This document shows, piece by piece, positions 14,464-64,000 of a stretch of DNA of 64,000 nt (position 1 is the first letter of the stretch; the number at the start of each line of letters is the position of its first letter). The stretch comes from Acephala macrosclerotiorum (lineage: Eukaryota; Ascomycota; Leotiomycetes; Helotiales; Mollisiaceae), in contig MU119405.1 in assembly GCA_014904845.1 (NCBI GenBank), forward strand, positions 1-64,000, read 5' to 3'. The position numbers and the translations under genes are program-made. The notes under the pieces were generated by a model that saw only the letters and a list, made by a program, of their open reading frames with translations, was not told the DNA's origin and ran no database searches.

Positions 14464-14838
14464 TGAGACTCCGGCCCATCCTTTCGCCTTTCCAACCAGC
14501 AGACCTACGAAGCCGGCTCCTGGAGTTGTGGGGAGAGCGATGCCGGATGTGTAGCCGGTTGGGTCGGTGTAAGCCTGGAAAGTGATAGAAGTTTTTGGGT
14601 CAGTATAAGCGCCGGTCGTTCCTTGTGCGGAGACTGAGAGCGCCGCCAGAGGCAAGAGGGCGAGTGAGAACTTCATCGTGAAGGGTTGTAGGGTAGAATG
14701 GAAAGGTTGTGTATTAGAAAACAGTACGGGATAGTCAATTGAAAAGGCTGGCAACGCCAGAGGTTATAACCACAAGACGAGATGAAGCTCGAGGAGCTAT
14801 GAAATGAGAATTGAGCAAATTGATCCCAGTTGTGAGGT

Positions 14839-14849
14839 CTTTATATAAG
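14839..14849 (-). promoter_or_regulatory. TATA box of the cytochrome-domain gene
   Basis: Read on the minus strand, the sequence is CTTATATAAAG. It lies about 165 bp before the ATG at 14676, a plausible core promoter position. Its survival suggests that the promoter side of the gene was not reached by RIP. Confidence 0.5.
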
Positions 14850-37766: not shown

Positions 37767-38689
37767 TCATTTTAAAAGGTCTTCCATGTTCACTTCGCCG
37801 CCACGCCCTATTACTAGTCTACTTTCGTCACCAACAGTCACATCGCCTGTCTTAATCTTCACCTTGTCCCCTTTTTCATTGGAGCCGAACCACCCAATCA
37901 ACGCTTTGGACTTGTTGCCCTCCTTGACTTTCCCTGTCTCGATCTGGTACAGGAAATCCTCAATATGGGTATTGGCTTTGGCAATAGACTCCTTGAAAAG
38001 CGCAAGAATCTCTTGACTAGACTTGTCATCTGTGCCTGGTACCACCTGCACATGTCGTGGCTGCTCGTGTATGTCAGCGATCTGCCTTGTCGTGGTACCG
38101 TTTATATGGCGCAGCTCCTCCTTAATCGTGTTGAGAGCTTGCAGCATCTCATCTGCCTTCGCGCTAGAGCCTACACTGAGGGAGCTGGATCGATCATCGT
38201 TAGTATACGCTTTCAACGTTACCTAATATGCTCGGAAAACTGGCTCACTCACATCGTTGCCATCTGGAGTCCTATCATGAAAGTCCCTTTCGAAGCAAGT
38301 AGCTGGGTCCTGAATTCATGTATCTCAGCCTCACCAAAGAATCCTGGCTTAATCTTGTCTCTCCACGAAATCTTGCCATCGTTGGAATGCTTCGTCCATT
38401 CGTCGAGCTTCGCTTGAAATGCGGTACAAACTTTCTGGCAATTATCTGAGGCTAGCTCGACGCTGTTCTGCTTGAGCACTAGCAATGCTACTTGTGGTGT
38501 GTTCTCGTCGTTGACAAACACGCTCAACGATGATAAGACATCGACCAGCGCCTTCAAATCATTGCGGATCGGTAGGAGAGTCTTGTCGACGTGGACGACC
38601 TTCTCGAAGTCTTCATACAAGACTCTTGCTCCGTGTAAGGCTGCAACGACAATTCCAATAACAGCGCTTGCGGCGGCTACGCCCTCCAT
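37767..38689 (-). CDS. HeLo-like cell-death effector with two C-terminal amyloid motifs
   Basis: Two exons, 38689-38253 and 38184-37767, joined by a 68-nt GT-AG intron, encode 284 residues. The N terminus (MEGVAAASAVIGIVVAALHG, then an amphipathic helical bundle to about residue 145) matches the HeLo-like N-terminal domain of fungal STAND and cell-death proteins. Its first helix is hydrophobic, as in membrane-targeting HeLo domains. The C terminus has two copies of one 15-residue motif: TGKVKEGNKSKALIG (229-243, DNA 37893-37937) and TGDVTVGDESRLVIG (258-272, DNA 37806-37850). HET-S has the same design: a HeLo domain plus two amyloid-forming repeats with Val/Ile faces and Gly turns. By that analogy, templated folding of the tail would unleash the N-terminal domain on membranes. 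The divergent neighbour carries one matching motif. Function is inferred; the motif match is seen directly. Confidence 0.82.
37806..37850 (-). other. Amyloid motif repeat R2 of the effector
   Basis: This encodes residues 258-272, TGDVTVGDESRLVIG. Against the receptor motif TGPVNVGDGSKVMIG it is identical at 9 of 15 positions, with conservative R/K, L/V and V/M differences. Confidence 0.75.
37893..37937 (-). other. Amyloid motif repeat R1 of the effector
   Basis: This encodes residues 229-243, TGKVKEGNKSKALIG. It shares the T-G-x-V-x-x-G-x-x-S-[KR]-x-x-I-G frame with R2, whose start lies 29 residues further on. Confidence 0.7.
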
Positions 38690-39153
38690 ATCGAAAGACT
38701 GCTGGTCAAAAGCTTCGACTTTTCAATCAACGCGATATTTCCCCGTCAACTCTCCAGAAGCAGGCACGATTAATTGACAGTGCTCGCAGGGAGCTATGAT
38801 TGAAGAGCTGATAACATCTTGCTTCGTTGGCAATATGCCATGTTCCAGCTGGTAGGGATCTATGACGCTACCGTCATGCCGTCCCAATGAAAAGTCGCAG
38901 TGGCCGCATGGCGGCAGTCTGCACCTGTCCAAAACCGGCTATCTCGGGCGCTCACTTTATTCAGATGCACCACGCTGGGGGATTCTTAACAGCAACAACT
39001 CATCGAGTGAAGAGTCGGGTAGTCTACAGACTCCTTGCTATATTTCGCTGTCATCGTCATTCACGCGAGACCAGAGCCGCTCCCGGCGAACCTGGGTGAT
39101 ACGTTGAGGCCAACACCCGCAGACTTGCAACATTGCTTCAAAGATATCGAAAG
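38690..39153. promoter_or_regulatory. Divergent promoter region of effector/receptor pair
   Basis: 464 bp separate the two start codons of the divergent pair. No reading frame is supported and no clear TATA element was assigned. The short spacing allows co-regulation, as is common for paired effector and receptor genes. Confidence 0.55.
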
Positions 39154-42100
39154 ATGGAGCAGAGCGGCCATGGCTTTTCATTGAGCACTGGGCCTGTTAA
39201 TGTAGGCGATGGATCGAAGGTTATGATCGGGAACTTTTCTGGCGCAAGTAAGATGGCTCATCCCGTTCTCGCTCTGACAAGGCCAGCAGTCTGATTGTTG
39301 ATACTTGCAGGGCATCAAAGAGAGGAGATACTAGATTGGCTTGCACCGGATGGTCTCCGCCTTGCTCAACACAAGGCTCACGTCGAAAACAGCCGGGGTA
39401 GAATCGACGATACTGGCAAGCTCTTTATAGAAGGTGGTTTCGAGATTTGGCTCCGCTCTGGCAGTACTCGTCTCTGGATCTACGGGGGTGGTATGTTAGC
39501 CGTAGTGTAATATTAACTGGTATGCTTACACATATTTAGTGGGCTCTGGAAAGACCATCCTTTGGTATAGTCTTCCTAATTATGTCATTTGTCGAAGATT
39601 GACATTGACTGATAACTGACTTCTATAGCTCCCTTCTCATCGATAAGATGCCAGCACTTCTATCTTTGATATACCCGTCCATAACGGAGCACATTGTAGT
39701 ATATTTTTACTGCTCATTTCGTGCGACCGAGACGTCCGATGTTTCCACTTTCTTAAAATCCATTCTCGTGCAGCTGTGCGAAAGGAGAAAGATATATCCC
39801 GCAGTTGAAGACTTATGGGAAGCTTCCAAGCCACACCAGGCCTCACGCTCGAACCTTCTTACTACACTTCTGGATGTGTTGAAGTATATATGCTGTCCTA
39901 CCGAGACCTCGAAAAACGGTTCAGAAGTCGGCAAAAGTGCTACCTCGTTACGCAGCACCGTCACACTCATCATCGATGGCTTGGACGAAGGCATAGCTGG
40001 ATACCTACGGACCGAGTTTCTTGACACGCTGGAGACTATCTCAACTTCTCAAATGGCGAATTTTCGGATTATCAACGTGAGCCGGGAGGATGCTGAAATT
40101 AAGAGCTACATGGACCGAAATAATGGGTGGACTTGGTCCATGCGCACTGCTGCTGACGTGGAGCATGAAGTCTACATGTTTGCCAAAGTCCGCATCTCCA
40201 GACACAGGATGCTGAAGATGCAAAATCAGACAATACAAGACTTGATCTGTGGCCTGCTGAGTAAAGGTGCTGGTGGCATGTAGGTGTGACATTCTTCGAG
40301 TATGATGACAACGCTGATGATTGTTTTAGGTTTCGGCTTGCAGCGCTTCAGATGACCCAGCTCGAGCTAGAGACAAATAGTCTCCGTAGTATTTTCGAAG
40401 ATGATATCAGGAACATACTTATCACATTACCTCGAAGCTTAGATACCTTCTATGACTTGATTGTCCGACGGATCCCGCAACATCTGCGAACCGAGCTCGA
40501 ACAGGTCCTAAAATGGCTCCTCTACGCTAGTCGACCGCTGCTGGTGGAAGAGGTGGTTGAAAGTTGTGCTATGTCCATTAGTTGTCGAGATGGACGGCCA
40601 TCTATTGGCAAAAACCGCCGACATGCCTTAGATATCCTTGACAATCTTCCCGGGCTCGTAAAGTTGGAGCCGCCTTTCCCGCAAGATAATGGGTCAAGCC
40701 CCCCTTTTGGCATCCATGTACTTACCTTCGCACATTTCTCAGTCCAGGAATATATCTTCCCTCTGCGGGATGTTCAACGTCCGGGTGGAGAATGTCGGTT
40801 CACAGAGCCACTCCAGGACCATCAAGACATTGCACGAGGCTGTCTTGCCTATATCCTCCATTGCTTCACCGAAAGAAGTGAACGATCCAAGTTCTTTTTG
40901 CGATCATATTGTTGGCACTATTGGGCCATGCATTCCAAAGCGGTTCCGGATGGGGATGAAGTAAAGGCACGTGTGACACCAGAATCACTACGCCTTCACA
41001 ACAGTATCACTTGCCCAGAACTGTATGAGGAAGGCTCTGAGCGTACGGCTGCTGAGTGGAGTACATTCAAGGAGTGCGCATCATGCTTTACTCCTAATGA
41101 GTATGCAAAACTGATCGAGGCTTTGCAAGATCTCAAATTCCCGTATGAGGACACCACCGAGACCTCGCAGGAAACCAATCCCAATATCGAGCGGGGATTT
41201 CGAGCACAAATGACAAGCAAATCTCATCGTGCCATAAAGCTGCTCATCATACAGCCAGCCGAGATCAAAAACGCACCGATCGAATGCAGCTTGTGCTTGG
41301 ACTTCCTCGAGAACAGACCTCTTTTCTGCGCCATCAGTCATACATGGTATCCTCTTTTTAAAATTGGTGACGACTCCATCAGGATTAACGGAAAGCTCTT
41401 TCAGACACAACACATAGCAGAGCCCGCTATATCCAAGTTTCGTCGCAAAGATCGCGCACAAGCACTGTGGATAGACTCGATTTGTATTTCCTATACAGAC
41501 CGCGACGAGGTGCGGTCGCAGTTGAAATTCATCGCTGATGTTTTTGAGATGTCCCAAATGGTCATTGCTTGGCTAGGTGAAGCTGATGAAGATACGGAAG
41601 AAGCTATGGAGTATTTGGAGGAGGATTTTCCGCCGACCAAAAATAGGGAGAAGGCGTGCGAAGCTATATCCTCCCTCTTTCAAAAGCTTCTGTGGCCTCG
41701 ACAATGGATAATCCAGGAACTAGTTGTGGCCAAGAAAGTCATAGTAGCATGTGGAGATCATACCTCAGATCTAGATTTGTGGTGTGCTATTCCCAGGCTC
41801 GTGACGAAGCTGTTCGTTGACGAAGGGACGTCCAAAGCTGTTGTGCCGAGTGTGGTTCTCAAAAGTTGGAACAGAATCTCCGCACTCCAAGTAATTCGAC
41901 AGCGACGGCTCCGAAAAAATGAACCCCAATTTCTGCTTCCGGAGCTTCTTTATCTCACCAGAGACCACATGGTAAGTCGTCGAACGGACAGAGTCATTAG
42001 CCTTTTACAACTCATATCGCCTGGAGAACGGGGCGACCCATTCTTTGCCTCGGAGGCTCTCAGATACTGGGATGACAGCGAAGGGTCTCTCTCTTTTCAA

Positions 42101-42973
42101 CTCACGGTATATATTGTAGAGAAGTATCAATCTTTATACGCACTCTCCAGTGCCTGGCCACCTCGTGCAGATACAAGACCCGGGCTGGAAGATCCAGTGG
42201 GTTTCGGCACCTGGACTATACACCTTCATGACTTAACAACGCCTCTCATACCTGGACCCGGAAACGAAGACTACAACGCCGGCGGGAAAGATACCCGTGG
42301 CTTGTTTCCCTTAAAGGTTTCCGGACATGATGACGGAGTATTGATAGCCCATGGCGCTCTAATTGGAATTGTAGAAGACAGTGCTTATTGGAGTCGCCGC
42401 CCGCTGCCTAAAGAGTTTGCCAAATTAGATCGAAATAGCAGCCTGTTCGGCGTGATCGCAGATGATAAAGAGGGGGTATCAAAACTGCAGACACTTCGCA
42501 GTATTATGAACTCCTCAGAATTTCAAGCAGATTGGATGGCACCCACAGGCTCAGGAAATCCTTCTGTGCGGGCTCGGCAGGGCAAAGGCTGGCATCCGAG
42601 TTTCAGGAACCGTTTTGAGAGGTTGAGGGTCCGACGCAGCAGAGGCATGCCTGAGCCGCAGAGTGAATTCACGGTGTCCGCAAATGCATTCAGTTGTGGA
42701 GGCTATGCTGGAATCGCACCCATAATCGTCAAAAACGGCGATATAGTCGTTGTACTTTTTGGTGGTAGACACCCTTTCGTGCTGCGTGAGTACGATGCTC
42801 GCCGACGTCAAAATCCGAGATATCGACTTGTTGCTGAGTGGTAACGCCTTCGCTTCCCGTTTAATTGCATGAACTGACTTTTTCATAGCTATGTTGATGG
42901 TATCATGCACGAAGAAATGGTGAGAGCAATTGAGGAAGACAAAAGTCGAGCGAAAGAATTCTGGATCGTCTGA
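39154..42973 (+). CDS. NLR-type receptor: amyloid motif - NACHT - HET
   Basis: Six exons, 39154-39247, 39311-39490, 39540-39564, 39629-40279, 40330-42840 and 42889-42973, encode 1,181 residues with every phase consistent. Residues 12-26 (TGPVNVGDGSKVMIG) are an amyloid-type motif matching those in the neighbouring effector. Residues about 35-330 are a NACHT NTPase: REEILDWLAP lead-in, P-loop GGVGSGKT (90-97, split by an intron) and Walker B LIIDGLDEG (about 213-221). Then follow FRLAALQM and ITLPRSLDTFYDLIVRRIP with winged-helix-like sequence. Residues about 647-775 are a HET domain: ISHTW, LWIDSICIS, AWLGEADEDTEEA and WPRQWIIQELVVAKK. The tail GYAGIAP...DIVVVLFGGRHPFVLR...ECYVDGIM is the usual HET-protein C terminus. 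No WD40, ankyrin or TPR repeats are present. By analogy with NWD2 it would oligomerise on ligand binding and seed the effector amyloid. The HET domain adds a second death-inducing output. Confidence 0.87.
39187..39231 (+). other. N-terminal amyloid motif of the receptor
   Basis: This encodes residues 12-26, TGPVNVGDGSKVMIG, followed by NFSG. It lies entirely in exon 1, separate from the NACHT-coding exons, so it could be shuffled as a unit. Confidence 0.75.
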
Positions 42974-43968: not shown

Positions 43969-46330
43969 TCAACACCGAAGTCGTGCGTTCAGATCTGAAA
44001 GTTTCCCATAGGTTTCATCAAAAGTCTCGCCTTCACCAACACAGATTCGGTACGAGATTCTGGCATACTCCTCTGCTTGGGCCTCGAGATCAGGTGCCAC
44101 CAAACGATAGGCATTGGAAAGAAGCATCCAACACTCGATGAGACGGTCCATCATCAATCCCCATTTCTTGACCACCATTGGCAGGCGCGAGGTGCGTGGG
44201 AGGTTCCCTCCGTCAATAATATAACCAAGAGATGCCAGAACCCTCAACGCCGAGTCGATAACCTTGAATGGATTCCCTTGCTCCGTATACATCTCTGCAA
44301 GAGCCAGTAGGGGATCCCAAATGCTTAGTTGAGGTACTTCAAAGGCCGGGTGACTATATGTATTCGCCATTTTAGCAAGGATAGTCTCGATCTTGGCTAC
44401 ATCTGCCCCCTTGCGGGACTGAAAACATTTCAGAAGGTCAGCCTTTAGGCTCTTCCTTCTTGCCAAATCACTCCTCTTCGTTGTCTGATCGTCCCGGCAC
44501 ATGCTGCAGTCGCACTTAAAGCCCCATTGACGAAACTTCTTCTGACGGTCGTCGTAGCCATTAGCGACAGGCATCTGATACCAGAAAGTGATCTCAGTAT
44601 CAGGTGCGAGATCTTGCGTCGCGCGGACCATCATCATATCACCGATGAAAGCGCGTTGGGAATTACTGTAGCAACAGTGGTTGACGTACGATGCCATGGG
44701 CCAAATACCACAAGAGTGGAATTGTTCTTCGTCCGTGTTCGTTTTCGGGCTTGTCACATCTTCCTGGGCATGGAGATGAGACTCGTGAGATGAGAGGGGA
44801 CAGCCGAAGCAATTCAAAGATATGATACGTTCGACCAGGAACCTAAAATAGTTAGTCAAGACTTAGTATGAGCCGGAAGATGATTGGTCACTTACGTGTC
44901 GATAACTGGTGTACCGTCGACATCGGAAACATCGACAGGCTTGTACGAGCCGTGATGAAGACTGGTGATGATTGAAGCTAGAGAGGGGTTCCGGTGAAGC
45001 TTCTGGACAATCATTCTGATGAGTTCTCCCTGCGCTCCCATCGTCATGGCGTTAGTTTCCGCGTTGAGCAGTAGGGTCACATCCCGGCTGTGCTCCTTTC
45101 TAGTGTCAACGAAAGCATGCACAAATGCCTTCTCACACAAAAGGAGATCGCCTGACTTGACTGCTTTTGTTGTGAAGAGGCCGCGTCCCCGGGAACCCGA
45201 AGATCTTACTGCCACCGGGCCAATGTATGTGGAATGGTCCAGGTGTGGTGGGCGAAGCTTGTTCGCATCTGTATATAGTTGCTTAAACCGATACCTGCCG
45301 TTCTCTTGCTCTGCAAGTCGGTTGACGGCTCGTGTAAGTTCGCCCTTGGCCGCAACGTTGCTCGGATATTCCATACGAAGAACTTTGAGAACATCGCAGC
45401 ATTCTCTGTACCTCCGGAGATTGTAAAGGGCTTGGGCTTTACGGAATAGAGCTTTCTCGGTTGGCTTTTGGGTGGTTGACACAGATTCGAGATCGGAGAG
45501 GGCAGCATCGAACTGCGTCGTCTTGAGAAAAGCAAGAGAGCGATTGAGTTTGAGGGTGTGAGCCTCTTCGACAGTTGGAGAGCAATCGAGAGCTTTAGTG
45601 TAACTGCCGCGATGTTGAGTTTTATCCTGTGGAAAGAATCACTAGGGACTTACCTTTCGATGGCAGCGTAGTACCTGGACTCGTTGAAGTAATCGTTTCC
45701 CTTTGCCTTCCAAGCACTAGCAGAGACGTTATGCTCCACAAACTTTAGCTGCCAGCAATTTGGGACTCGCTCATCGTACATCGAAAGATATGTGACGTCG
45801 GAGAGGTGATCAATACGAATCCCATAATCTCCATCGGCCATCAACTTTAAATAGGGTTCTTTCACAATCAGAACCGTTCCCTCCTTAAGGATCTCTTCCG
45901 CAGCGCGCTCATTCTCCACCTCTTGATAGTACAGCTGCAACATGAGGACGTCCTTGTTTTCGTCTTCTACAACGGCCATAATAGCATTCATTCTATCTGG
46001 CGGGGTAACTGACCTCAAAAGAAGGTAAGTGCCCCTATGATGAGTCTCAAGAAGAAGATCTTTGATCATGACTTTCGCTAGGTCGGAGAAGGGACTAAGG
46101 CATGGAATGTAGGCCGGAGGAATGAACGATGATCGCGTATTGTAGGCGCCGGAGTCAGCTTTGCGCTCCTTCATCAAAAGTCGGAACCTGAACTGCATAA
46201 TAATTTCATTCCGAGACTTTTTTCCCTTAATGTGCTGACCCTTGCGGGATTGTGCATCTCGAAGACGTTGTTTCTGCTTCTGCAAGAGTTGTACGAACTC
46301 TGGGATGGCAGACACATCGTGTGTGTTCAT
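43969..46330 (-). CDS. TPR and SET domain protein, putative lysine methyltransferase
   Basis: Three exons, 46330-45654, 45603-44896 and 44842-43969, joined by 50- and 53-nt GT-AG introns, encode 752 residues. The ATG at 46330 (MNTHDVSAIPEF) was chosen because the frame upstream has no ATG. Residues about 205-330 contain tetratricopeptide repeats (KAKGNDYFNESRYYAAIESY, ALFRKAQALYNLRRYRECCD). Residues about 355-550 are a SET domain: SRGRGLFTTKAVKSGDLLL, the cofactor-pocket motif NHCCYSNSQR (about 510-519) and TEITFWY. A cysteine motif, CDCSMC, follows at about 573. Fungal TPR-SET proteins are SmyD-like without an obvious MYND finger between the SET halves. Protein-lysine methylation is inferred and the substrate is unknown. 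Confidence 0.87.
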
Positions 46331-47799
46331 GATGCTCGACGACGGCAGCACTAAGCCGCCTAGTGCAGATTTGTTCTTTCCGTCCGTTAATTAGATAGGC
46401 AGATGGGGAGTATTTGACGTTTGATTAACCACCTAGAGATTATTTACGACAGAAGCTCATCACAGAAGGACGGACATGTGAGGTGGTGACACAAACCAAT
46501 GCGTTTTCGCAAGTGGCGGAAACTAGGACCAACCAGCGTAGTCGCATGCACTACTATCCAGAAAGGGCCTGGGAATTGAGGGATCAGTTCGAAATAACCT
46601 GAATAGTAAAAACTTGAGGCGACTCACTCAGATCCCTTACCACCTATGATTTCCCTGATATTATCTCACGGCTATTACTAAAGTCAGAAAAAGCCTGTCG
46701 CCAAGTGGTGTGGGAATACAAGCAAGCCATTCAAGGCATGATTAACTTTTTAAGTGGTTGCTCTGGTAAGCCTTGCTCCACCCGACTAATAGGTACCTAT
46801 CAATGAAATTGGTGGCTCACTAAGTCTGCACACGCCCTCTTGCGATATGCAACGCAACCACTGATACTAGAGTTGGAAAGGACTGAAAATGTCTTTCCAA
46901 TCCATTTATTCTCAGGGCTTCTCTCTCGCAATATTTTATTTCTAGTATCTCATTCTCAAAACCAGGATCTTTCTCAGCCTCTGTACTGGGATTCGTTGTT
47001 GGCTTCCATCCATTCAACCTATTGGAAACTAGCTTTGGGTGGGTTTGGGTGTGGCTAAAATTGGCCGCTGGCTACCATGATTTCTCGGATGCAATCAAGG
47101 TACTGTAGCGCTAGAAGATACAGGGACCGATTGTTGCAGCTTGTTGGGTTCCATAGTGTCAGTATTTAATGCTCTGAAATATAGAAGCCGGACTTACTAT
47201 GGTGTGCGCACCATTTCTTATTATTACTCAGCCTCCATGTCCACGAAACGTTCACCAGCACAAACAGAGACCAACCAACTAAGGTCTTTCTCTCTAAGAA
47301 ACTTCTGCCCCACCTTAGGCTATCCGATTCGACGTGAGCTACATGGACCAGATCTGCTGCCGCCAGTGATCAATGAGTAAGAGCGGGGCTAGCGGGTAGC
47401 TGCAGATGCCGCTGCTAACGGAGGGTGTGGGTTCTTGATTGCTAGAGGAACCTTCGCCGTTGCCGCCAGTGCCTTTCCTTGAATTTGACTTTCATAGTAT
47501 GATTGAATAAGAGCCTGCTAGAGGTTTCATCACAAGCCGGTAATGTGTCTGACGCTCGTACCGACATCCGTGCTTTTGCAAAGCCTAATGATTGAAGGAA
47601 AGAGAGTAAACCAAGAATGACCAGGCGAGGCTGGGATATTGAAACGCTGACTGGAAGGCATAGTAAAATTCACACATGAAATTTAAGTAGAGAAGGCCAG
47701 GCTAATCCAGTTTCCAAATTCAAATTCGTTATATCAAGGCTGAGATATTGTTGCTGCATCGAGTTGTCGTTTCGTCTGTTTTCTCATTAGCCTCTAGTC
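46331..47799. other. Intergenic, about 1.5 kb
   Basis: No supported gene, repeat or RNA was seen. Frames of up to about 80 codons occur on both strands without motifs. Confidence 0.45.
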
Positions 47800-50937: not shown

Positions 50938-52096
50938 ATGGCTTTCATCTTCACGATGCGCTCGACGGGGAGTGGCAAGGGTAGTATGCATCGACGAGAT
51001 CCTGCTTCGGCAAGCTCTCTGCCGGCCATCTCAGAGGATGATGCTTCGTTCCTCGAGCCCAGAGCTCCTCCTGACATACCTGAAAGGGCGCTGAATCGAC
51101 CTTCGACGAGGATATGGGCGGCGGGAGCTCCGCCAATACACACATACGACCAGCCGCCGCCGTACAACCGCTTCGATGATGTATTTGGGCCGAATGGAGA
51201 GAATTTGGTAGATGTGAGGAAGCTGAAGGGCGTAAGGGATAAGAAATGGTTTGCAAAGAGAGGAGGGTGGAAGAGATTGGCTTTGATCGTGTTGGTTTTG
51301 TTACTGTGTATCGTGGGACTTGGTGTAGGATTGGGTGTTGGGTTGGCGCGAAAGCATAGCTCACCTTCGTAAGACCCCTCTGTTCTCTCGAAGTTCCCGT
51401 CTAACAGCTATCAGTGGCAAAGACAATGGCAGCAGCAGCAGTTCCCAAGGTGGTGCATCAGGCACGCCTAACAACCCCGCCACGAACAATCCAGCTTCCA
51501 ACACCACCTTCCCAGCCGGCTCCTACAGATTCGACACCTTCCTCGATACCGTTGCCACGAATTGTACCTCCAATCCAAATACCTGGCTCTGCTACCCATA
51601 CTCTACCTACGCACAATCCCCCTCCTCATCCGCCGCGACATTCGACTGGATAATCTCCCCCGTCAACAACACAAACAACTACACCATCTCCTCCACCCAA
51701 AACTACTTTTCAATAATCTTCACCAACCTCTCTCTCACCCTCCAAAAAGCCGGCGCCAGCGACGAACACTACTTCTTCCAAACCATAATGCAGAAGCCCA
51801 CAAAACCGACCGTGCAACTTGGGAGCTCGAATGTAGTTAGTACATGCTATTTCAATTCCACCACCTTCCAAGGATACCTCTATACTAAGATGCCGAAATC
51901 GTATCCGAACAATAGCACAAATACAACGACTGAAGCTTTTACACCGTGGCCGTATGCGGTGAAGGTTGAGCAGGTTGCTGGTGCCGGGGCGGGGACACCA
52001 ACTTGTCTTGGTCCGTCCGGGGAGAGCTTGGGGAATTTTAGTGTGGAAGATGGGACGCAACTTTGTGATTGTTTGTATTTGAATACGGGAACTTGA
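50938..52096 (+). CDS. Single-pass membrane protein with glycosylated outer domain
   Basis: Two exons, 50938-51368 and 51415-52096, joined by a 46-nt GT-AG intron, encode 370 residues. About 110 cytosolic residues (Pro/Arg-rich, with DQPPPYN) lead to a strong transmembrane helix at about 115-137 (LALIVLVLLLCIVGLGVGLG). It is preceded by basic residues (KRGGWKR), which favours a type II topology. Outside lie a Ser/Gly/Asn linker and a domain of about 200 residues with many N-x-[ST] sites (NTT, NCT, NYT, NLS, NST) and six or more cysteines, ending CDCLYLNTGT. This build is common in fungal plasma-membrane or cell-wall proteins of unknown function. Translation could instead begin at the second ATG (50956). 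No enzymatic motif was seen. Confidence 0.82.
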
Positions 52097-55048
52097 TTTG
52101 ATACCTTTGATCTTCGTCGTTTAGCGTGGGTGGATGGCGCTGGGGAGTGTTTTTTGTGTATATCTTACGATGTTTCGATAATGTGGAGAGCTGTATAAGT
52201 ATGCTTCAACGGCCGACTTTAATTGGAGATTGGAGATGGATTGTATATACGAAGTATGATAGTGTGTAATTCGTAATGTATACAACATATTCTACGCATA
52301 CTCTTCTGTTCATTCACTGCAGCTTCTGCTCATCTGTGAGTCATGATCTCGCGAGCGCCTACCGTACTTCGAGATTCCTATAAATAAACACCCTCTATGT
52401 TGGGGACTCGGTCTGGTTGATACTTAGTCAGCATAGCGCTATCTAGGCTACCGCCTTAAGGCTTATTGTAGACTAGATAGAATGAATCATCTTTCACTCT
52501 CTGATATCGTCCCTCGAGACTCTCCTAGACTTGCAGGGTGGAGTTGGGTTGGGGAGATGTGCTTGATTTGAATCGAGCACATTTGTTCACAAAGAAGGTT
52601 CAAGAACGTCAAGCTAGACTTGAGAAGTCCGGCGAGCTGAAGATGATTTTTCTAACTGTTGCTCTTAGCTGGGTTGACAACCTCATCATGCTCATCCTCC
52701 TCTCTTCCCTCTCCTTCCGTGTTCGAAGCATACCGACCCCTTGTATTGCTGTTGTCATTTTCTGCATTACTGTTAATAACTATCTTTTATTCCGATATCT
52801 TCAAGACTGCGTTTACAACCGCAAGGTGAGGCCCAGATCCGCCCCAAAGTCAGCAACGAGCACCGAGCAATGGAACATAAGACCAGGCATACAATACCAT
52901 GTGGTCCTACTAACAGCACAGATCTACCACTTCTGACCAATAAAGCAGTCTTGATGATCGTTCGGATCCGTTCCAGGATCAAGGAAGATGAGAAACGTCT
53001 CAGCTTTAAAGGTTGTCGAGTCATTTGTCGCGTTAGTTGCATTTTCTCCCTTAGATTCCAACCCGGATTAATTCACGCTTCATCTTCCGACTTCCACATG
53101 CTGTGCAGTCCTTTGGTCCGTAGCAAATTTCTACCTCAAAACGGCTATAAAATTGATCACAACGCATCAAGAAGCTGCCTAGCAGGACATCACGTCCTAT
53201 TCTTCACTGCCAGATTTCTCCAGTGGAAATTTTCCTCCTCGAGTTGGTTCGAGCTATGCTTGGGGACTAGTCCATTCTTGAATTCTCTCTCCCCTTCTCT
53301 TACTGCGTTGATTCTTAACGCTGTCTGAGCTCTGACCTTGTTTTTGTCAATTCAATCACTGCTGTCAACATTCACCACCCGATTGCAAACTCTTTGATTC
53401 CTTTCCGAATCAAGAACAGGATCTGAGTTTTCTCTACGTGGCGAAAAGAATCGATATCGAGCAAGAGGCAAAGAAGTACCATGCCTAGATTTCGAGTACA
53501 AAGTGCATACTTCCTGTCCGTTGCTTCCTTGACACGTGTGTGCTCATACCCTGATTCGTGTGAGGACTGGAAGAACTCGGAAAGTCTGGCTTTTATAACT
53601 TTCCAGATCCGCTTGTCGTGATCTTCAGTTCGAAGGTTTGAGGTTTCTCATCATTCACTGGCAATCAGATCAGTAGTCTCAGCTTTCGAGCTACTCTGCT
53701 TTGAACGCGATGATCGAAGTGATGCGAAAGGAAGGGGTGGGAAGCTATAAAAGTGTACTCACTGTCTAGTCTTCTTCCTTCATCCTTCAAAATGGGATGA
53801 GCGGGATCGGATTCTCCAAGGGAAGCTGTGTCTTCTGCATGTTTACGTTGATGCAGTTCTGTCATTCATTTGAGAATTCATGTGATGTTTTCTTGCATTC
53901 TCTCTATCTTCGAGTGTTTCATTTGAGTATGCCAAAATTGTGTATTCTTGCTGTCACGTCTACCTCTGCCGTCACCTGCAATCGCTACAACTCATCCTTC
54001 CAGCCTGCGGATATTCTCCCAAGTCAGACCAAAAGCAGAAGAAAGACAAACCCCCAAAACAGTAGCATCACGCGATAGGTGGGGTCGGTTATTGGTAGAA
54101 GTCAGCTAGCTTCTTGGCTACCAAACTTGATAAGGGGGTCGAACGTGTCATCGATGCGGTGGTTGTTCGGCACAGAACCGAAGAGGATATTTATACCCTC
54201 CACACCTCACCTCAAACTAGGCAGCCTCGACTTGAATCGCTAGATGATGTTTTCCGGTGGATGAAGGAACCAGCGTCAATTGAATTCAAGACTTGCAATG
54301 TAAGGGTGTTTGAAGTATCTTCTCTTGAGGTAAGCGCATACCCCAGAAAGTGTATAAATCACTCTCGCCTTCTGCAATTGTTCTGCAACTATCCATGCCT
54401 CCTTCGAAGCCGCCCCTCGAACAGGCGCTTTGTGCTTTCAGTCCTTGCAATCTCACCCGCTTGTTCTAAACATAGAATCGTCCCTCTGCCTCTCGCTCCA
54501 AACTTATACTTGATTCTGCTAAGCTGCTTCAATAAAAGGTTTCACTGCTGTCATTCCGGCGTTGGCTGTCAGATTCACCTCACGAGTTTCCATGGGATGC
54601 TAATTCAGCCCTTCCCCCTGGGGTACGCTACAGCGAGACAAAGAGTCAGGCTTCTTGTTCAGTGGCATCACGTGATAAATGAAGATGGTCTCTTTGAGAA
54701 TTCTTCTCCTTGTACATGAACTGCGGAGGTCATAATGGCGTGGTCGTTATAGTTGTTCGGCATAGATCGAGGAAAGAATTTATATATCCCTTCCATCCCC
54801 ACAAACTTGCTTCCGTTGAGTCTTAAGTCCTTGTATAACGATTTCGAGTGAAAGTTATTGAGTGAATGTTTTCCGGTATCCTAAAGGTCGCCAGTTTGAA
54901 GAGTATCTCTTGCTTTGAGAAGTGCCCCCCTCGAAGACTATAAATTCACGATTGCCTTCTATCATTATTCCGCATCTCGACTTTGGTGGCGTTGAACTCC
55001 TGGGTGACGGGTGACAGGTGATGCCATCGACTCTTTTCAATTCTCTCC
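52097..55048. other. Gene-poor region before the second transposon
   Basis: About 3 kb. A frame near 52538-52936 has two hydrophobic stretches (MIFLTVALSWVDNLIMLILL, CIAVVIFCITVNNYLL) and might be part of a small membrane-protein gene, but start and splicing are unclear. From 53140 on, several TATA-like blocks recur (near 53143, 53592, 53745, 54188 and 54780). Two are followed by similar text (gttgttcggcaYaga, then tttccggt), which suggests partly duplicated, decayed sequence. A 201-codon frame from 54114 begins at a non-ATG codon in that duplicated sequence and is not accepted as a gene. Confidence 0.35.
55041..55048 (+). repeat. Target-site duplication of second hAT-like element (left)
   Basis: TTCTCTCC abuts CAGTGTGA. 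Its partner TTTTCTCT at 59120-59127 matches at six of eight positions, the other two being C/T transitions. Confidence 0.5.
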
Positions 55049-58000
55049 CAGTGTGAGAAATTCAATAATACTCAATAACGAAAATGAGTTAAGTTATTCT
55101 ATTTATGAGTAACACGTGAGTTACTCTTATTCTATTCAATAATAATCATTATTATTCAATAAGTTATTGAATAAAATCACGTGCGAAGAAGCAATTTTAC
55201 TTAATTAGTTAAATACGCGAAATGGCTTAGAGAGTAAATCTAATTAAATAGAGTGGCTCGCTTATTTAGACTTCGAATGTTTCGTTGACGTCGAAAACCA
55301 ATAATTCTTCGAATTAAAACTCGAAGAATTTATTTAATAATAAATCGAATAAATTGTTTAAAATTATTTTTTTCGAGATATAAATTTATTTAAATATTGA
55401 AAATAAATTTCGAAAATTTAAAGACTGAAATATTATTCGATTAATTAAATAATTTATATAATTTAACAATTTTCTCGAAAATAATTTTTATTTTCAATAC
55501 AAATAATTTAATAATAAATTAATTATATAATATTTCTTTGAGATTTTTTTATTAAAAAATTTTATTTTATTTTAAAATGTTTTATTAAACTAATAATATT
55601 ATTAATCGATTTTAAAATACTATCGAATTTTAAAGTACACTTTTCAAGAAAATTTATTTCAAAAAAAAAACTTAAAAAAATTCAATTTAATTCGAATAAT
55701 TTACGTATAATTATTATATTTTATTTTAATTATTCGTAAATTTTCTTTTTTTTAATTATTTTTTTTATTTTTAATTTTAAAATAATTAATAATATTTATA
55801 AAAAAAATTAGAAAAATTAAATTATTAATTAATTTATTAATAATTACAAATTATATTTTAAGTATTTTTATAAAATATTTTATTTTCAATTTATAAATTT
55901 TAAAAATATTAATATATTTTTTTATTATAATATTTTTTTAATATTTATAAAATATTTATTAATTTTTTTTTAAATAATTTTTTTAATATATTTAATTTTC
56001 AATAAAATATTACAAATATTATAATTTCTATAAAAATTAAAAAACGTTTTAAAATATTAAAATTCGATAAAAATTTATTTTGAAAATTATTATTAAATTT
56101 TTTTATATTTAATAATTTTCTTTTTCGAGTATTTTTTAATACAATTTTTAAAATATTAATCGAATATTTTAATTTATTAATATATATTTTTTTTTATATT
56201 AATATTAATTAATTTTTTAATAGAAATATTTTTAAAATTTATAAAATTTTTTTTTAAAAAAAATAGAATTTTTTATTTATTAATAAATTGAATAAAATTA
56301 AATTTGAATTATAAAAATAAATTAATTCAAAAAATTTTTTTTTTTTAATTTTAAATATTTAAATTATTATTAATTAAAATTATTTTATAAATAAAAATTT
56401 TCAAATAAAATTTTATAAAAAAATATATTAAAATTTATATAATATATTAAAAATTTTTGAAATTTAAAATAATATAATAAAATAAAATTAAAAATTAATT
56501 TATTTTTTTAAAAAATTATAATATTAATTATTAATAATATTATAAAAAATAATATTTTTTTTAATAATATTTTAAAAAAATATTTATTGTTTTATTTATA
56601 TTTTTAATATTATTATTTAAAAAATATTAAAAAATATTATTAAAAGAAATTATATTTTTTTTAATAATAGAAATATTTATACAAAAAATAAAAAAAATAA
56701 AAAATTATTTAAAAAAATTTCGAATAAATTAATATTTTTTAAATATAAATATTTTATTAATTATTAATTTTTTAATTTAAATTTTTTTATTTAAAAAAAA
56801 ATTCGAAAAATTATTATTAATATTTGATATTTTTTTGAGAATTTACGAATATTTAAAAATTAAATTAATATTACAAAAATAAAAAAAATTCGAATTTTTC
56901 AATTTAATAAATTTATTTAATTTTAATTTTTTAAAAATATATAAATATTAATATTTTTAAATTAAAAAATTCAATAGTATTTAATAAATTATATATTGAT
57001 TTATTTTTTAATAATAATTAAAATTATTAATATTACAATTTTTTAATTAATTTTTAATTAATAAAAAAAAAAAAAATTTAAAAATTTGTAAATAAATTTT
57101 TGAAATATTTATTTGAATTACGAAAAAAATAAAAAAAAAAAAATATTTAACGATATATTATTTAATATTTGAAATTTTTTAAATTTATAAAAATTTTAAT
57201 AAATTTAAAAAAAAAATAAATAAAATTTTTTTTTTAATTTTTAATTTTGAAATTAAATAATATTTATTTATTTAATATTTAAAAAATAAATAAATAATTT
57301 TTTTTAATTAAAATACGAATATTATTTATATAATTAATAAAAATATAATTAAATTAAAAAAATATTATTGTAAAATTAATATTATAAATAATTCAAATAA
57401 AATTATATATATAATTTTAATTTTAAATTTTAAAATTAAATAAAATAATTTAATTACTTTGTATTTAAATTTTGAATAAATAAATAATATTATTATTTTT
57501 TTAAAAAAAAAATTCAATTTATAAATTTATTATTTTAATTAATTTTAATTTTTAATAATTTTATTTTTTAATTAAAAAAATATTATTATAATAAAAAAAA
57601 ATAATAATAATATTTATTTTATTATTATTAATATAAATAAAAAAAATAAATTAAATATTTATTTGAATTTTTTAAAAATTATAAAAAATATAAATTTTTT
57701 TTTTATTTGAAAATATTTATATATATTATTAATATATTTTTTTATATTTTTTTATAAAAAAATAATTAATATAAAATAAATTCGATTTTTAATTTAATAA
57801 TTAAAAAATATTTTACGTTTTTTTATTTTATTTTAAATTGTAAAAAAATATTTTTAGATTTTAATTATTTTAATATTTTTTAAACGTTTTATTTTTTTCA
57901 AAATTTTTTACTTATTACAAAATATTGTAATAAAGTATTTAAAAATACTCTAAAGTAAGTTTTTTGTTTAAAGAATTGAAATATAATTATTAAAAAAAAA

Positions 58001-59119
58001 TTTGAAATTTTTTTTTTTTTAAATTAAAATAAAAAAAAGATTTTAAAAATTTGTTTTATATTGAAAAAAAGTAATTTCTAAGTTTTCTTTTGATTCAAAT
58101 CATAGATTTCTTTAGTCTTTAGTATATAAAATAAAAGAATTTTAAGTTTATTATTGTATTCAAATTCTATATAATATTATATACAAAATCACGTAATTAT
58201 TTAATAATATTAAATAATTACTAATTATTCTATTCTATTTTATTCAATAGTTTAATTATAAACTCGTTATTTTTACATCAGGAAAAATTTTTATATGCTA
58301 ATTGGTTGCCAATAGTGCCAGCGGCTTGCCAATGGCGCGCGCTACGCAGTTATTGCATGTCTAAAACTTTGGCGCCTAATGATAGTCGATTGGCAAGTGG
58401 GTCTAAGCCCATAAGAACACTAAAACTCTCGGTTCTCGGCGGCTGCAGACGGCTGCGCGCGGCCTTTATGCAGCCACACTTAATCAATTGAGCCGCTCAG
58501 CCTCTAAGTGCCTTATTTTAAGTTCTCAATACTCAACATTGATTAATTGTAGCACTCGCTCGCAGTACTTACTAGTACTCTCTACGCGCGTAAATTTTGC
58601 TTGAATCGATTGATTTTACGATCAGATTTTAAATAGCGTTAATATTTTCAATTTTCATTCTTATCTATTTGCATGATTTATGAGACGGTGAAAATCTATT
58701 GATCGAATAAAGCGCGGCCGCTAGTTTCTTAGCGAAGAACATCAAAACTTAATAGCTCTCAACTTTGCAATTTAATATCTCAATGCGCGCTCGATAGATT
58801 TACTTGAAACTTTTATAATAGACTAAATAAGTACTATAGATTATAAGTTTCAAATATCTAAGTATTTAGTCTTAAGCTGGTACTATTAGCAATGCTTTGG
58901 CACTATTAGCACTGGGCTGGCGCTGTTGGCACTAGACTAAAATAGCCGGTGGCGCTGGCAATCGACTAAGTTGCCATTGGCTCGCTAATAGCGCTACTAG
59001 CGCACGTGTCTTTCGGCAAAACGGCTGGCAAAAAATATTTTTCCTGATGTATTCTATTGAATAATACTCAATATTATTCAATAATTATTCAAATAATTGA
59101 TTAATTTTTTTTCACACTG
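55049..59119. mobile_element. Second RIP-degraded hAT-like element with nested MITE
   Basis: The left end CAGTGTGAGAAATTCAATAA at 55049 and the right end at 59119 (inward, CAGTGTGAAAAAAAATTAAT) form short terminal inverted repeats. The flanks are a probable 8-bp target duplication with transition differences. The total is 4,071 bp, or 3,297 bp without the nested MITE. CAGTG-type termini and 8-bp duplications fit hAT. The interior (about 55300-58250) is among the most AT-rich DNA in the window and has no readable protein, so the family assignment rests on the ends only. Confidence 0.6.
58276..59049. mobile_element. Nested MITE with CATCAGGAAAAAT terminal repeats
   Basis: A 774-bp element of ordinary GC content sits inside the AT-rich hAT-like element. 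Its ends are CATCAGGAAAAATTTTTATA and, inward from 59049, CATCAGGAAAAATATTTTTT, and it is flanked by TA on both sides (58274-58275 and 59050-59051). TA duplication and this size indicate a Tc1/mariner-derived miniature element. The interior repeats themes such as ttgccaatagtgcc and tggcactattagcac near both ends. A 61-codon frame (58306-58491) shows no transposase features. It lacks the RIP decay of its host, so it probably inserted later. Confidence 0.72.
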
Positions 59120-60110
59120 TTTTCTCTTCCGGTTTTGTTAAGGCACCGAACTTGCCCTGTCTCTACTGCATTTTCGTGTTCCTTCTCTAGTTTTGTGAAG
59201 CAATATCATCGAGGATAGAGAGGGGCTGCTGTCATTTCTGCAGTTGTTGTCAATCTTGGTCAGCGAGATCCATCGACTTCCACGCCGTCCAATCGTGACT
59301 CAACACCAAGTCAAGACAGAACCAGAAGGATACTGACCTCCTAACTCGACATCTTCGGTGGTGGCTGTCAATCTGAGTGATATATTTGATGATCTTGATG
59401 ATCTGGTTGATTGATTAAGGTGGTGAGATCTAGCTAGGTGCGGGGACATTATATCCATTGCAGTGCTTACTTAGCACTAAAACCACTCGAAAGTCTAATA
59501 CGCCCCTTGTTAAGGAGCGCTGTAGAGAGACAAGGGCAGGCATTGCCAGAGCGACCACATCGCGAAGGAGGGGATCTTCGAAAATAGCGCGTTCGGGAGA
59601 TGTAGGGGTATCCATTGACGATGAATTGCGATTTTACGGCCCTCTGAAACGCTGACTGAGAAAGTCGAAATGAAAGTGGTTTGCTTCCTCAGGCTACAAT
59701 ATGATGACATAGCGCTGTGATGACCTCATGACCACAATACAGACGACAGTGTACAGATTAAATCTGTCGCAGCGATCGTCTTTGTCTGACGTTATACGGC
59801 AGCCTCTATCGCAGGGAAGCATGACTCCGACAACAGTCAGTGCGACTATTTGTGATGGATTGGATAGATTCGAGGGCATCAATGCCGCCGAATGGGATGA
59901 AGTTCCCGAGAGTCAGAGTTTGGCCGAGCAGTAGGCGATTACGTTTGCGAGGAGATTGAAGTTTGGTAAGATGGAAAATGAGATGGTACGACTGTCTACC
60001 TATTTTCGAGACCAGATTCACTCTATAGTAATACAATCGCTTGCAAAATCGACTTCGCCTCTTTCGCTTAAAAAGATTCTAACTATATTAGTCACTTTTG
60101 GTACTTGGTA
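59120..60110. other. Unique spacer between AT-rich blocks
   Basis: About 1 kb of ordinary composition. Short frames on both strands (60-75 codons) have no recognised motif. It may be the remnant of a gene, but nothing can be supported. Confidence 0.4.
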
Positions 60111-61600
60111 CCGTACGTGTTTGTTATCCTATGTAGTCTATAGTATTGTATTGTATCGTACAAACGATAAAACGTCGAAAATTGAAATGTTCGATTTAAA
60201 TCGATTAAATTATTGTATTAATTTTATTTAATATTGTAAATCGTTTATAAATTATAACGATAATTAATTCGATATATTTTTTGTTATTAACGCGAGTATT
60301 CGAGACTTTATAAAGCGTTTTCTATGAAATTAATTTATTTTATATACTTAAAAATAATTTTAATTAAATTTAAAAAAAATCGACGTTTTTAATAAAATAT
60401 TATATAAAATAATATAAAATAATACGTAATTATAAAAATAAATAATTTATTTAAAATAATAATTACTAATTATTCGACGTCGTATTATATATTTTATATT
60501 TAATTGTTTAATTCTCGATTAAATTTTATTATTAAAAATTAAAAATTAAAAATATATATAAAATTAATATTAAAATTATAATTAAAATATTATTAAATTT
60601 CAAATTAATTAAATTTATACGATTTTTAAAATTTGTATATATTTATTATAAATCGTTTATATTTAAATTATTTAAAAAAATTTAAATCAATTATTATTTA
60701 TAAAACTTTTTAATTATTAAAACGTTATTATTTAAATTATTTAATTATAAATTAAAAAAAAAATTTAAATAAATAATTAAATAAATTACTCGAAATTTTA
60801 ATAAAATTTAAATGTATTTTTTTTATTTAATAATTAAAAATTTTTATAAATAATATTTTTTGAAATAAATCGATTAAAATATATATATAAAAAGTATTTT
60901 AATTATATAATTAAAAAAAAAAAATTTTAAAAATTTTTAATTCGAATATTTTATTTATATTTTAAAATTATTTAATAATAATAATTTAATAATAAACGTA
61001 TATATATAAATTTTTTTTTTTTAATTTTTTTTTTATTAAAATTATAAAAATATATACAATATAAATTAATTAATTTTAAAAATAATAAAAATTTTTTTTT
61101 TTTTTTTTTTATTTTTATAAATTTTTTTTTTTTAATTTTTTTTTTATTAAAATTATAAAAATATATACAATATAAATTAATTAATTTTAAAAATAATAAA
61201 AATTTTTTTTTTTTTCGATTTATTTTTTAATTAATATATAATATTAATTAAAATAAAATATTTTTCGCAAATATTAAAATTTTTATTATTATAAACTTTA
61301 TAATAATAATAATTGTTTTTTTTTAAAATATTTAAAATATAAATATTATATTATTTAAAATATTTAATATTAATTATTAAAATTATTATATTAAATATAT
61401 TGTTTTTTTAAATAATTATATATTTTTTTTTGTATTTTTGAAAAAAAAAAATCGATAATATAAAAATGTTTAATTTGTTTTATTTACTATAAAAAAATTC
61501 GATTAAATTTATTTATAATATTAAAATTAAAATTTTAAATTAAAAAAAATATTATTACATTTTTATATTTTATTTTCGTTGCAATTAATAATAATATCGA
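60111..61600. other. AT-rich RIP-type block
   Basis: Very AT-rich DNA without readable protein. It includes a direct duplication with a period of 111 bp (copies around 61010-61110 and 61121-61210, sharing attaaaattataaaaatata). It lies downstream, on the minus strand, of the ankyrin relic and may include its decayed 3' part. No transposon ends were identified. Confidence 0.5.
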
Positions 61601-62620
61601 ATTATAATAATTTTTCGAATTTATATTAATTCGATTTATAATAAATAAAAATTGAATAATAATTTTATTTTTATTTTTAATTGCGTATAATAATAACGTT
61701 CAACGAACGTTATTTTTCGCGTTAATATCGAAATTATTTTCGAGTAATTATTTAACGATAATTTCGTACTCGTTATAAGCGATTTATAATAGCGATATTC
61801 GATTATTCGTATTTTTAATCTCGAATTTAATACTTTTATCGAGTAATTATTTAACGACGATTTCGCGTTTTTTTAAAACGATTTACAATAATAACGTTCG
61901 ATTATTTGTATTTTTAATTTCGAGTTTAATATTTTTATCGAGTAATTATTTAATAATAATCTCGTATTCGCTTTTAATAATTTACGATAACAACGTTTAA
62001 TTATTCGTATTTTTAATCTCGAATTTAATATTTTTATTAAGTAATTATTTAATAATAATCTCGCGTTCGTTTTAAATAATTTACGACAATAATATTTAAT
62101 TGTAATTATCGTTTTTTAAATTAATATCGATTTTTTTTATTGTAAATAATAATTTGACGATATTTTCGTATTTATTTCAAATAATTAATAATAATAACAT
62201 TTAATTATTATTGTTTTTCGAATCGATATTGATTTTTTTTATCGCGAATAATAATTAAATAATATTTTTATATTCGTTTTAAATAATTAATAATAATAAC
62301 GTTTAATTATTATTATTTTTCGAATTAATATTAATTTTTTTTATCGCGAATAATAATTAAACGATATTCTCGTACTCGTTTTAAATAATTAATAATAATA
62401 ATATTCGATTTTTATTATTTTTCAAATCGATATTAATTTTTTTTGTAATAAACAATAATTGAATAATATTTTTATATTCGTTTCAAATAATTTATAATAG
62501 TAATATTTGATTATTATTATTTTTTAAATCGATATCGATTTTTTTTATCGCGAGTAATAATTAAACAATATTTTTATACTCGTTTTAAATAATATACGAA
62601 AACTATTAAAACGTTCAAAA
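61600..62620 (-). pseudogene. RIP-destroyed ankyrin-repeat gene
   Basis: The DNA shows about ten tandem units of 99-103 bp. The repeated phrase (plus strand) cgagtaattattta recurs at 61741, 61840, 61939 and 62038, and related forms at about 62140, 62241, 62343, 62443 and 62546. Read on the minus strand in one continuous frame, each unit gives a decayed ankyrin repeat, for example EIKNTNNRTLLS followed by EIIIKxLLDKNIKF, where x is a stop. This is what G-to-A mutation makes of the consensus DGRTPLS...G-H-E-x-V-V-K-L-L-L. Stops occur only as TAA or TGA, as expected from CAA, CGA or TGG. The frame stays open across units, which argues for an old coding gene rather than a satellite. Ankyrin arrays with near-identical 33-residue repeats are typical sensor domains of fungal NLRs, but no NACHT part could be read. 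Confidence 0.78.
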
Positions 62621-64000
62621 ACAAATCACGAAATACTAAGATTTTAATTTGATATTAATAATTCAATTTTGTTTGTTTCTTCTTAGAAAAAGCATTTTTC
62701 TACCTATATAATTAAATAGAGTAGACGTAAGATTAAAGAGTGGACACTAGAGTAACTATTGTCAAAGGCAATAGAGATTATAACTAAGATTATTTAGTCG
62801 ATCGTTTAAGCGATTACATGATTGAATCGACATTGGTAATTCTTTTTTTGAGAGAAGACGCTCTTTCCAACTCGTAAACCAGATACAAAGAAAAATACTA
62901 TCGCGATTACTAATGCGCTGTTCCACTACCAAATACTAAAAGGAAATCTGATCGTGAATCAATCGCCATTACGTATTGTAATACTTGATCGATCAGGCCA
63001 GACTTGAGAGAATTCTCCCAAACCCGATGTTTATAACTTTCGAGCCAATCGGAAGCTCTACTCCCGAAAACACCGAAAATATCGAAAAACACTAAAAACA
63101 CTAAAACAATAACTACACGTTTCTCTTTCCAGTACTATTCTTCTCAACGACTACTCTTTCTACTATTCTCGCTCTCGCCGACTAATTTTTAGATTTCGAG
63201 ATATTGCACTCATTTTTGTACTTTGACATTAAAACGATTAATATTAATAAGCGATTCAAATATTTTATTAGTATTAGACTTAATTATAGTATCAATTGGA
63301 TTATTATTTCTAGTAATTTATCGAATTTTCGAGAATTTTTTGCGTTTATACAATTATCTAATAATTATAATATCGATCATAAGACGCTTTTTTTTAGTAG
63401 TATCGAGTTTGATTATATACTCGTAAAAAGAAAAAAAATCGATACAAATAATCACAAGAATTAAATTCAATTCAAATCGCTTTATAATAAAATCAAAAGT
63501 AATAAAAATCGAGATTCTTATATCAATTCTTATTGTTATTGCGTATAACTCAAAAACTAAAACAATACGAGTAATTTTTTTATATTTCGTTGAATTTCAA
63601 TAGAATAAATTGTTTTGTAAATCGAATTATTTATCGCTATAAATTTCATTACTAAAAACGATAATATACTCGATCTACGAATTGAAATTTTTATTTATAA
63701 TAAAAAAATCGTTTACAAAAACGAAGAATTTCATTGAATATAAGTTCAAACAAAAAAATCGAAGTCTACGATCGAAATTATTTATTTATTATTGTAATCG
63801 TTTATTTAGTATTACAATTTGCTTTTTTTCGAGATATTAATATTGAATTATCGCCAATATATTGTACGTAGTTTCCGATTGGCAAATAAAACTAATATAT
63901 ATTCTTTGAGTACATTACTCGAAATATATCTATTTGTAAAAATCTAATTTCGAATCAATTAAACTTAAACGCTTGTTTTACTTTTTTTGCGAAAGTACAA
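62621..64000. other. AT-rich sequence at the window edge
   Basis: 62650-63200 is less decayed and includes a 63-codon minus-strand frame starting at 63101 (FGSRASDWLESYKHRVWENS). It might belong to the region upstream of the ankyrin relic, but it shows no known domain. 63200-64000 is AT-rich with short hydrophobic frames that look like RIP products. Nothing further can be supported. Confidence 0.4.

Follow-up and report, generated by a model that had tools for sequence, protein, structure and literature searches.

A putative amyloid-type NLR/effector pair with its own HET-s-type repeat variant and a C-terminal HET domain in Acephala macrosclerotiorum

Introduction

The locus described here lies on contig MU119405.1 of the Acephala macrosclerotiorum (Helotiales, Mollisiaceae) assembly GCA_014904845.1 (69.7 Mb in 778 contigs) and consists of a small effector gene and, beside it in divergent orientation, a gene for a NOD-like receptor (NLR; NOD, nucleotide-binding oligomerization domain). 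Its closest described counterparts are two systems of Podospora anserina. In HET-S/NWD2, the genes are divergent neighbours, the NLR is a NACHT protein, and the two partners carry two and one repeats, respectively (PMC3321046). In HELLF/FNT1, a HeLo-like effector with two C-terminal repeats stands next to an NLR with one N-terminal copy (PMC7885112). The repeats of these systems belong to classes HRAM1 and HRAM5 of the HET-s-related amyloid motifs (HRAMs). Papers are cited by their PMC numbers, here and below, for those parts of their text that were available to us.

The stretch analysed (positions 1 to 64,000 of the forward strand, 64,000 nucleotides, hereafter the window) shows the same two plus one arrangement. 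There are also clear differences: HET-S has a HeLo domain (PF14479), NWD2 has WD repeats, and FNT1 joins NB-ARC to TPR, while the A. macrosclerotiorum NLR joins NACHT to a HET domain. Judged from its sequence, the locus reads as a well-formed amyloid-type pair with an unusual receptor architecture. We estimate a probability of roughly three in four that the two genes form a cell-death pair of the amyloid NLR/effector type, similar in build to HET-S/NWD2 and HELLF/FNT1 and equipped with its own variant of the HET-s-type repeat.

Results

A repeat shared by effector and receptor

The features on which this reading depends are the following:

37767-38689, minus strand: effector gene, 284 aa; exons 38253-38689 and 37767-38184, intron 38185-38252
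37887-37949, minus strand: repeat r1, effector residues 225-245
37800-37862, minus strand: repeat r2, effector residues 254-274, after an 8-residue linker from r1
38690-39153, no strand: divergent intergenic region, 464 bp between the effector and NLR start codons
39154-42973, plus strand: NLR gene, 1181 aa; exons 39154-39247, 39311-39490, 39540-39564, 39629-40279, 40330-42840 and 42889-42973
39175-39237, plus strand: motif r0, NLR residues 8-28, inside the first exon (residues 1-31)

The products of both gene models proved to be letter-for-letter the same as deposited A. macrosclerotiorum proteins, the effector as P0001 (BDZ45DRAFT_731398, 284 aa) and the NLR as P0002 (BDZ45DRAFT_632632, 1181 aa), each with 100% identity over 100% of its length. 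The effector intron has GT-AG ends and contains TACTAAC. A first-pass annotation of the window had noticed a 15-residue pattern, T-G-x-V-x-x-G-x-x-S-[KR]-x-x-I-G, twice at the end of the effector and once at the start of the NLR, and this count was confirmed: the six-frame translation of the window holds exactly three matches (37893-37937 and 37806-37850 on the minus strand, 39187-39231 on the plus strand) and no others, and 60 windows generated by a first-order Markov model held none. When all 306,504 ungapped pairs of 21-residue segments between the two proteins were compared, the best eight were without exception r0 against r1 or r2, with a top score of 45 that none of 500 shuffled protein pairs reached (shuffled maximum 43). 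Within the effector, the best six of 29,646 non-overlapping pairs all set r1 against r2. Over 21 residues, r0 is identical to r1 at 9 positions and to r2 at 9, and r1 to r2 at 8. Against its own genome the r0 exon matched only itself (threshold E 0.001), as did the effector tail (threshold E 10). The three copies have remained alike, as expected if they are co-evolving.

The repeat and the published HRAM classes

We took the HRAM numbering and position rules from the text of PMC4518210 and not from profiles, and the class comparison below is by those rules. According to this source, the linker measures 6-18 aa in 154 of 155 double-repeat proteins, and 98 of the 155 have a neighbouring NLR with one N-terminal copy. 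The A. macrosclerotiorum locus has a HeLo-like effector shorter than 310 aa (284 aa), with two repeats within the last 80 residues and a linker of 8 aa, and a divergent NLR 464 bp away with a single N-terminal copy (residues 8-28). The glycine at position 19, invariant in HRAMs, is present in r0, r1 and r2 together with K/R at position 15. Positions 8, 16 and 18 are hydrophobic in all three (A16 in r1) and position 10 in two, and a diglycine closes r2 at positions 21-22. As in published HRAMs, r0 is poor in charged residues, with 2 against 6 and 7 in the effector repeats. An anticorrelation of charge has been described for six r1/r2 positions (PMC4518210); here positions 4, 7 and 13, i.e., three of the six, are oppositely charged, which is not significant alone (permutation p 0.065). 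An aromatic residue after r2, another HRAM feature, was looked for and is absent.

The class-defining residues are also absent. Position 3 is I, I and L (not the N of HRAM1, the Q of HRAM2 or the H of HRAM3), position 18 is I throughout (not the Q of HRAM4), and position 16 is A, L and V (not the Q of HRAM5). Since N3, Q3, H3, Q18 and Q16 are all lacking, the repeat belongs by these rules to none of HRAM1-5. On its residues, then, the repeat is best described as following the HRAM plan, with the general signature only in part, and as lying outside HRAM1-5, and the suggestion of the first-pass annotation that the locus has its own motif variant is thereby supported.

The effector and its HeLo-like relatives

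38109-38686, minus strand: HeLo-like domain PF17111, effector residues 2-171; the span takes in the intron

In the Pfam scan the effector matched PF17111, the HeLo-like family whose present Pfam name is PigL_N, at E 2.2e-22 (79.9 bits, cut-off 27.2), and the HeLo domain PF14479 was absent among its matches listed up to E 10. The protein had been announced as a HeLo-domain effector; the neighbouring small effector with two C-terminal repeats is indeed there, and its domain is HeLo-like rather than HeLo. An NCBIfam scan gave nothing meaningful. AlphaFold2, with an alignment of 45 sequences in which the other 44 rows have unrelated tails, modelled a helix bundle with an unconfident tail, and Foldseek found no match for this model at E 0.001 or better.

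The search for effector homologues returned only P0001 itself at E 0.001 among 2057 candidates scored. A wider search for HeLo-like proteins gave 210 at E 0.01 or better, the best 120 of which (P0001 among them) were listed. None of the 119 others had the HRAM pattern in its last 110 residues, a count that says little on rarity because two thirds of the query rows were PP-tailed and several proteins lacked a full tail. The genome itself contains 33 matches to PF17111, 30 of them with loci (two of these on one gene), and the double repeat pattern within ca. 1.5 kb was found at a single one of the 30, the present locus.

Two more HeLo-like effector genes of the same genome (L009:4208-5086 and L010:4016-4902) end in a C-terminal PP-like motif (TVTFGAQNSGFQAG...GGVSG), Q-centred and in place of HRAM repeats. 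They are similar in this to the HELLP/PP-motif effectors, which have the same HeLo-like domain and tails that are PP-like, not HRAM; the PP label rests on the motif description in PMC9815663 and PMC5485727. With such paralogues, two or more motif channels probably exist in this genome. The opposite-strand frames beside L009 and L010 resemble, by eye, TPR or NB-ARC/TPR NLRs, which makes further amyloid-type pairs likely in this genome, and a simple PP-like motif pattern was not found in these opposite-strand neighbours.

A HET domain in the sensor position of the NLR

39415-40085, plus strand: NACHT-type NTPase (PF24883, NPHP3_N), residues 67-252, E 4.9e-22, P-loop GGVGSGKT; introns within the span
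41327-41719, plus strand: HET domain PF06985, residues 650-780, in the C-terminal half, E 2.2e-17
41720-42973, plus strand: C-terminal region after HET, resembling free-standing HET proteins; one intron in the span

A NOD with a P-loop (PF24883, GGVGSGKT) places the protein among fungal NLRs. It had been described as a NACHT protein, which was correct for the NTPase and overlooked the HET domain (PF06985) in its C-terminal half. This C-terminal HET domain is the most unusual part of the locus. WD, ANK, TPR and HEAT repeats are all missing among the Pfam matches of the NLR listed up to E 10, and HET is found there instead. One uninterrupted exon, 40330-42840 (residues 317-1153), extends from where the NACHT region ends through HET, and both halves therefore belong to one gene. 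About 400 residues follow the HET domain; PF26639 is precomputed for the protein, its position not given. An AlphaFold2 model of the NLR (7 sequences, mean pLDDT, the predicted local distance difference test, of 36) was not used.

Among the seven family members scanned, this HET domain has the lowest score (64.2 bits vs. 88.7-103.3), and its first block reads SHTWY where six relatives have SY.WG. The glutamate after W-x-I-[QR], Glu780, is retained; it is Glu in six of the seven aligned family members and K in P0008. This residue would correspond to the TIR-type catalytic glutamate.

The HNWD family (HET-E, HET-D, HET-R) also combines HET and NACHT within one protein, but with HET at the N terminus and WD40 at the C terminus (PMC4986451). 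Here r0 is at the N terminus, HET lies at 650-780 and WD40 is not listed, and the NLR therefore falls outside HNWD. In the parts of PMC9815663, PMC12258605, PMC4986451, PMC10197012 and PMC12881547 available to us, HET is an N-terminal NLR domain and the order NACHT-HET was not seen. A literature search for "C-terminal HET domain" found none, supplementary tables aside, where individual listings may exist. In Sclerotinia, 5 of 44 HET genes also carry WD40, NB-ARC or NACHT, with the order not stated in the portion concerned (PMC5363999), and relatives of the NACHT-HET architecture may therefore be counted there.

Searching the genome with the NLR gave 40 listed matches, with 39 of 321 candidates scored, so that all counts are lower bounds. 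Four were pieces of the gene itself, 33 fell in the HET part and three in the NACHT part or the sequence that follows it; no listed HET match lies on the same contig as any of these three, and hence no second NACHT-HET gene was seen. The best-scoring free-standing HET match reached 80 bits at 29% identity (the other HET matches 24-35%, over short stretches), compared with 421-715 bits for the six closer relatives described below. We therefore rejected a recent origin of the HET half within this genome; the NACHT-HET fusion is not a recent local duplication.

Two other frames of the genome deserve mention. L064:601-3093 is a single frame of 831 aa that seems to join a segment caspase-like by eye to a HET-type C-terminal part, and would be another C-terminally placed HET in a probable death protein. 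L063:1-1827, which includes a masked stretch, resembles, again by eye, the last part of a HET protein with ankyrin repeats behind it.

Relatives of the NLR

With the whole NLR as query, 7994 candidates were scored and 8 proteins, itself included, passed E 0.001. Four of them contain NACHT plus HET at 36-37% identity (P0003-P0006, from Botrytis sinoallii, B. cinerea, B. fragariae and Ciborinia camelliae), two are HET-only fragments (P0007, 40%, and P0008, 36%), and the eighth is a Botrytis HeLo-like-NACHT-ANK protein. HET exceeds the Pfam cut-off in all six closer relatives, as does PF24883 in the four longer ones. The NACHT-HET architecture is thus common to A. macrosclerotiorum, Botrytis and Ciborinia. 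P0007 is a metagenome protein (jgi) of 789 aa that matches the C-terminal two thirds of the NLR at 40-44% identity, and the contig it comes from (8.8 kb) may include the upstream exons and a partner gene.

The N terminus could be inspected in three of the six relatives, since the model from Ciborinia begins further in and the two fragments begin further in again. These three, all from Botrytis, have at residues 25-45 a segment that follows the HRAM rules, with Q3, I5, I8, A10, R15, L16, V18 and G19, and by its Q3 it appears HRAM2-like; at positions 3 and 5 the A. macrosclerotiorum repeats show I/L3 and T5 instead. We then used a relaxed HRAM pattern based on the positions in PMC4518210, with T tolerated at 5 and 10 and, at some positions, A and Q, which was written after the Botrytis N termini had been viewed. 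Across 127 proteins without P0001 (39,071 aa) it has four matches, namely r0 and residue 29 of the three Botrytis NACHT-HET proteins, and with T disallowed at position 5 it would match the Botrytis three only. In shuffles of four NLRs the chance rate was 0.03 per 1000 aa, so that about one chance match would be unsurprising, and four at the N-terminal place would not. A motif at the same place with 3 of 21 residues identical (P0003) suggests that the receptor backbone keeps a motif while its class changes.

Surroundings of the locus

Very AT-rich blocks (G+C 0.17-0.38 in 4-kb steps) occupy 8000-16000 and 52000-64000, either side of the gene-bearing part of the window, and look like the product of repeat-induced mutation. 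The second contains AT-rich tandem repeat arrays, including units of ca. 100 bp at 61.7-62.6 kb. Adjoining the NLR gene, at 43972-46390 on the minus strand, there are frames with SET-domain-like and TPR-like sequence (by eye).

Discussion

The shared repeat probably passes a kill signal between a likely sensor and a likely membrane-attacking effector. By analogy with HET-S/NWD2 and HELLF/FNT1 (PMC3321046, PMC7885112, PMC5485727), a cue would act on the C-terminal half of the NLR, where a HET protein is fused in the place usual for WD, ANK or TPR repeats, and the NACHT domain would oligomerise. The r0 motifs, clustered at the N terminus, would stack into a seed and convert the r1-r2 tail of the effector, and the freed HeLo-like domain would move to the membrane and kill the cell. 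We believe it likely that r0 is clustered when the receptor oligomerises, that it then seeds r1-r2, and that membranes are attacked by the HeLo-like domain. Amyloid formation by the motif, seeding, membrane attack and sensing by the HET half are all steps that we infer. The prion-like signalling module proposed in the first-pass annotation holds as such an inference, given the two plus one repeats, the HRAM hallmarks and the Botrytis motif at the same place, with no match to PF11558 or to an amyloid in the Protein Data Bank (PDB) and no solenoid in the AlphaFold2 model.

Several observations weigh against this reading. The HET-s profile PF11558 matches neither protein and has no match above its cut-off anywhere in the genome (a weak match elsewhere, E 0.508, was rejected, as its open frame resembles an AAA ATPase by eye). 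PDB sequence searches with the effector, its tail, a motif profile and the NLR gave chance-level matches or none, and no solved HET-s-type amyloid was among them. The AlphaFold2 monomer of the effector has no beta-solenoid in its tail, where a pLDDT of 32-45 makes the result uninformative either way. In the repeats themselves, T stands at position 5 throughout and r1 has E at position 10, both places where HRAMs are generally hydrophobic, and r1 misses the relaxed pattern, fitting a looser one only (r2 fits it). No homologue with the effector's tail was found elsewhere in the searches above, which leaves a single genome in which the pair is known. Being congeners, the three Botrytis proteins count as one event, and their motif (P0003) shares only 3 of 21 residues with r0. 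The first-pass annotation had named a profile match and a predicted solenoid among its checks and would have given up its claim if both were missing. Neither was obtained and the claim would fail by the letter, yet PF11558 matches just 38 of the 155 known double-repeat proteins (PMC4518210) and the solenoid test was without power.

There are other explanations for what is seen at this locus. The repeat could be a homotypic docking element or beta-solenoid adaptor that works without prion-like templating, and the missing solenoid in the AlphaFold2 model, uninformative as it is, would agree with this; the resemblance of the motif to a stretch of gamma-carbonic anhydrase (TGDVQIGDES), although at chance level (E 2.2), makes a soluble beta-helix turn conceivable. 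We consider this unlikely, as the repeat count, the linker, K/R15, G19 and the neighbouring NLR all follow the published HRAM pattern, and HET-s and HELLF, with the same pattern, form prions with near-identical amyloid backbones (PMC7885112). A decayed or non-functional locus, in which the motif similarity is a remnant, might be suspected from a HET domain degenerate relative to Botrytis and from the very AT-rich blocks flanking the gene-bearing part of the window, but with both frames intact, clean introns, a canonical P-loop and three repeats that remain alike, as if evolving together, it seems very improbable. The motif is short, which is the one point in favour of chance similarity; neither the 500 shuffled protein pairs nor the 60 Markov windows reproduced it, and we give chance hardly any credit.

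A different kind of alternative concerns the HET half, which could be a second, TIR-like executioner, one activation leading at once to HeLo-like attack through r0 and to HET-type death. HET domains do induce death in fungi (PMC10890737, PMC12881547), and the glutamate after W-x-I-[QR] is kept in all aligned family members but P0008. However, the signalling domain of NLRs is N-terminal and HET here occupies the sensor position, and the A. macrosclerotiorum HET is the lowest-scoring of the seven, with its altered first block; we regard a dual output as doubtful. Under the amyloid-type reading preferred here, it is conceivable, although we advance it only tentatively, that a TIR-like HET protein, of a kind employed in non-self recognition, was built into the sensor position of an amyloid NLR as a decoy, one death pathway thereby being guarded by another, and that tampering with it or its recognition leads to HeLo-like membrane killing through a private, non-cross-seeding "HRAM6-like" motif, on a backbone shared across families of Helotiales in which the motif class has changed. 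C-terminal non-repeat NLR domains have been discussed as integrated decoys (PMC12258605), and the Sordariales NLRs concerned similarly have a non-repeat domain in the C-terminal sensor position; the domains named there are, however, zinc finger, SPRY and protein kinase, with HET-like as an N-terminal class. In Sclerotinia, 35 of 44 HET genes are expressed at a lower level under the effect of a mycoreovirus (PMC5363999), and HET proteins are therefore plausible things to guard.

Both the cues sensed by fungal NLRs and the function of HET proteins have been named as open questions (PMC10197012). With a read-out that can be seeded, a NACHT-HET receptor allows sensing by its HET half to be put to the test. 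If our reading is true, HET-s-type signalling would extend beyond the five described motif classes, and two fungal death modules, the amyloid-controlled HeLo-like pore formers and the TIR-like HET proteins, would be linked in one receptor system. The change of motif class between the Botrytis and Acephala versions of one receptor backbone would also be a natural test of how seeding specificity evolves.

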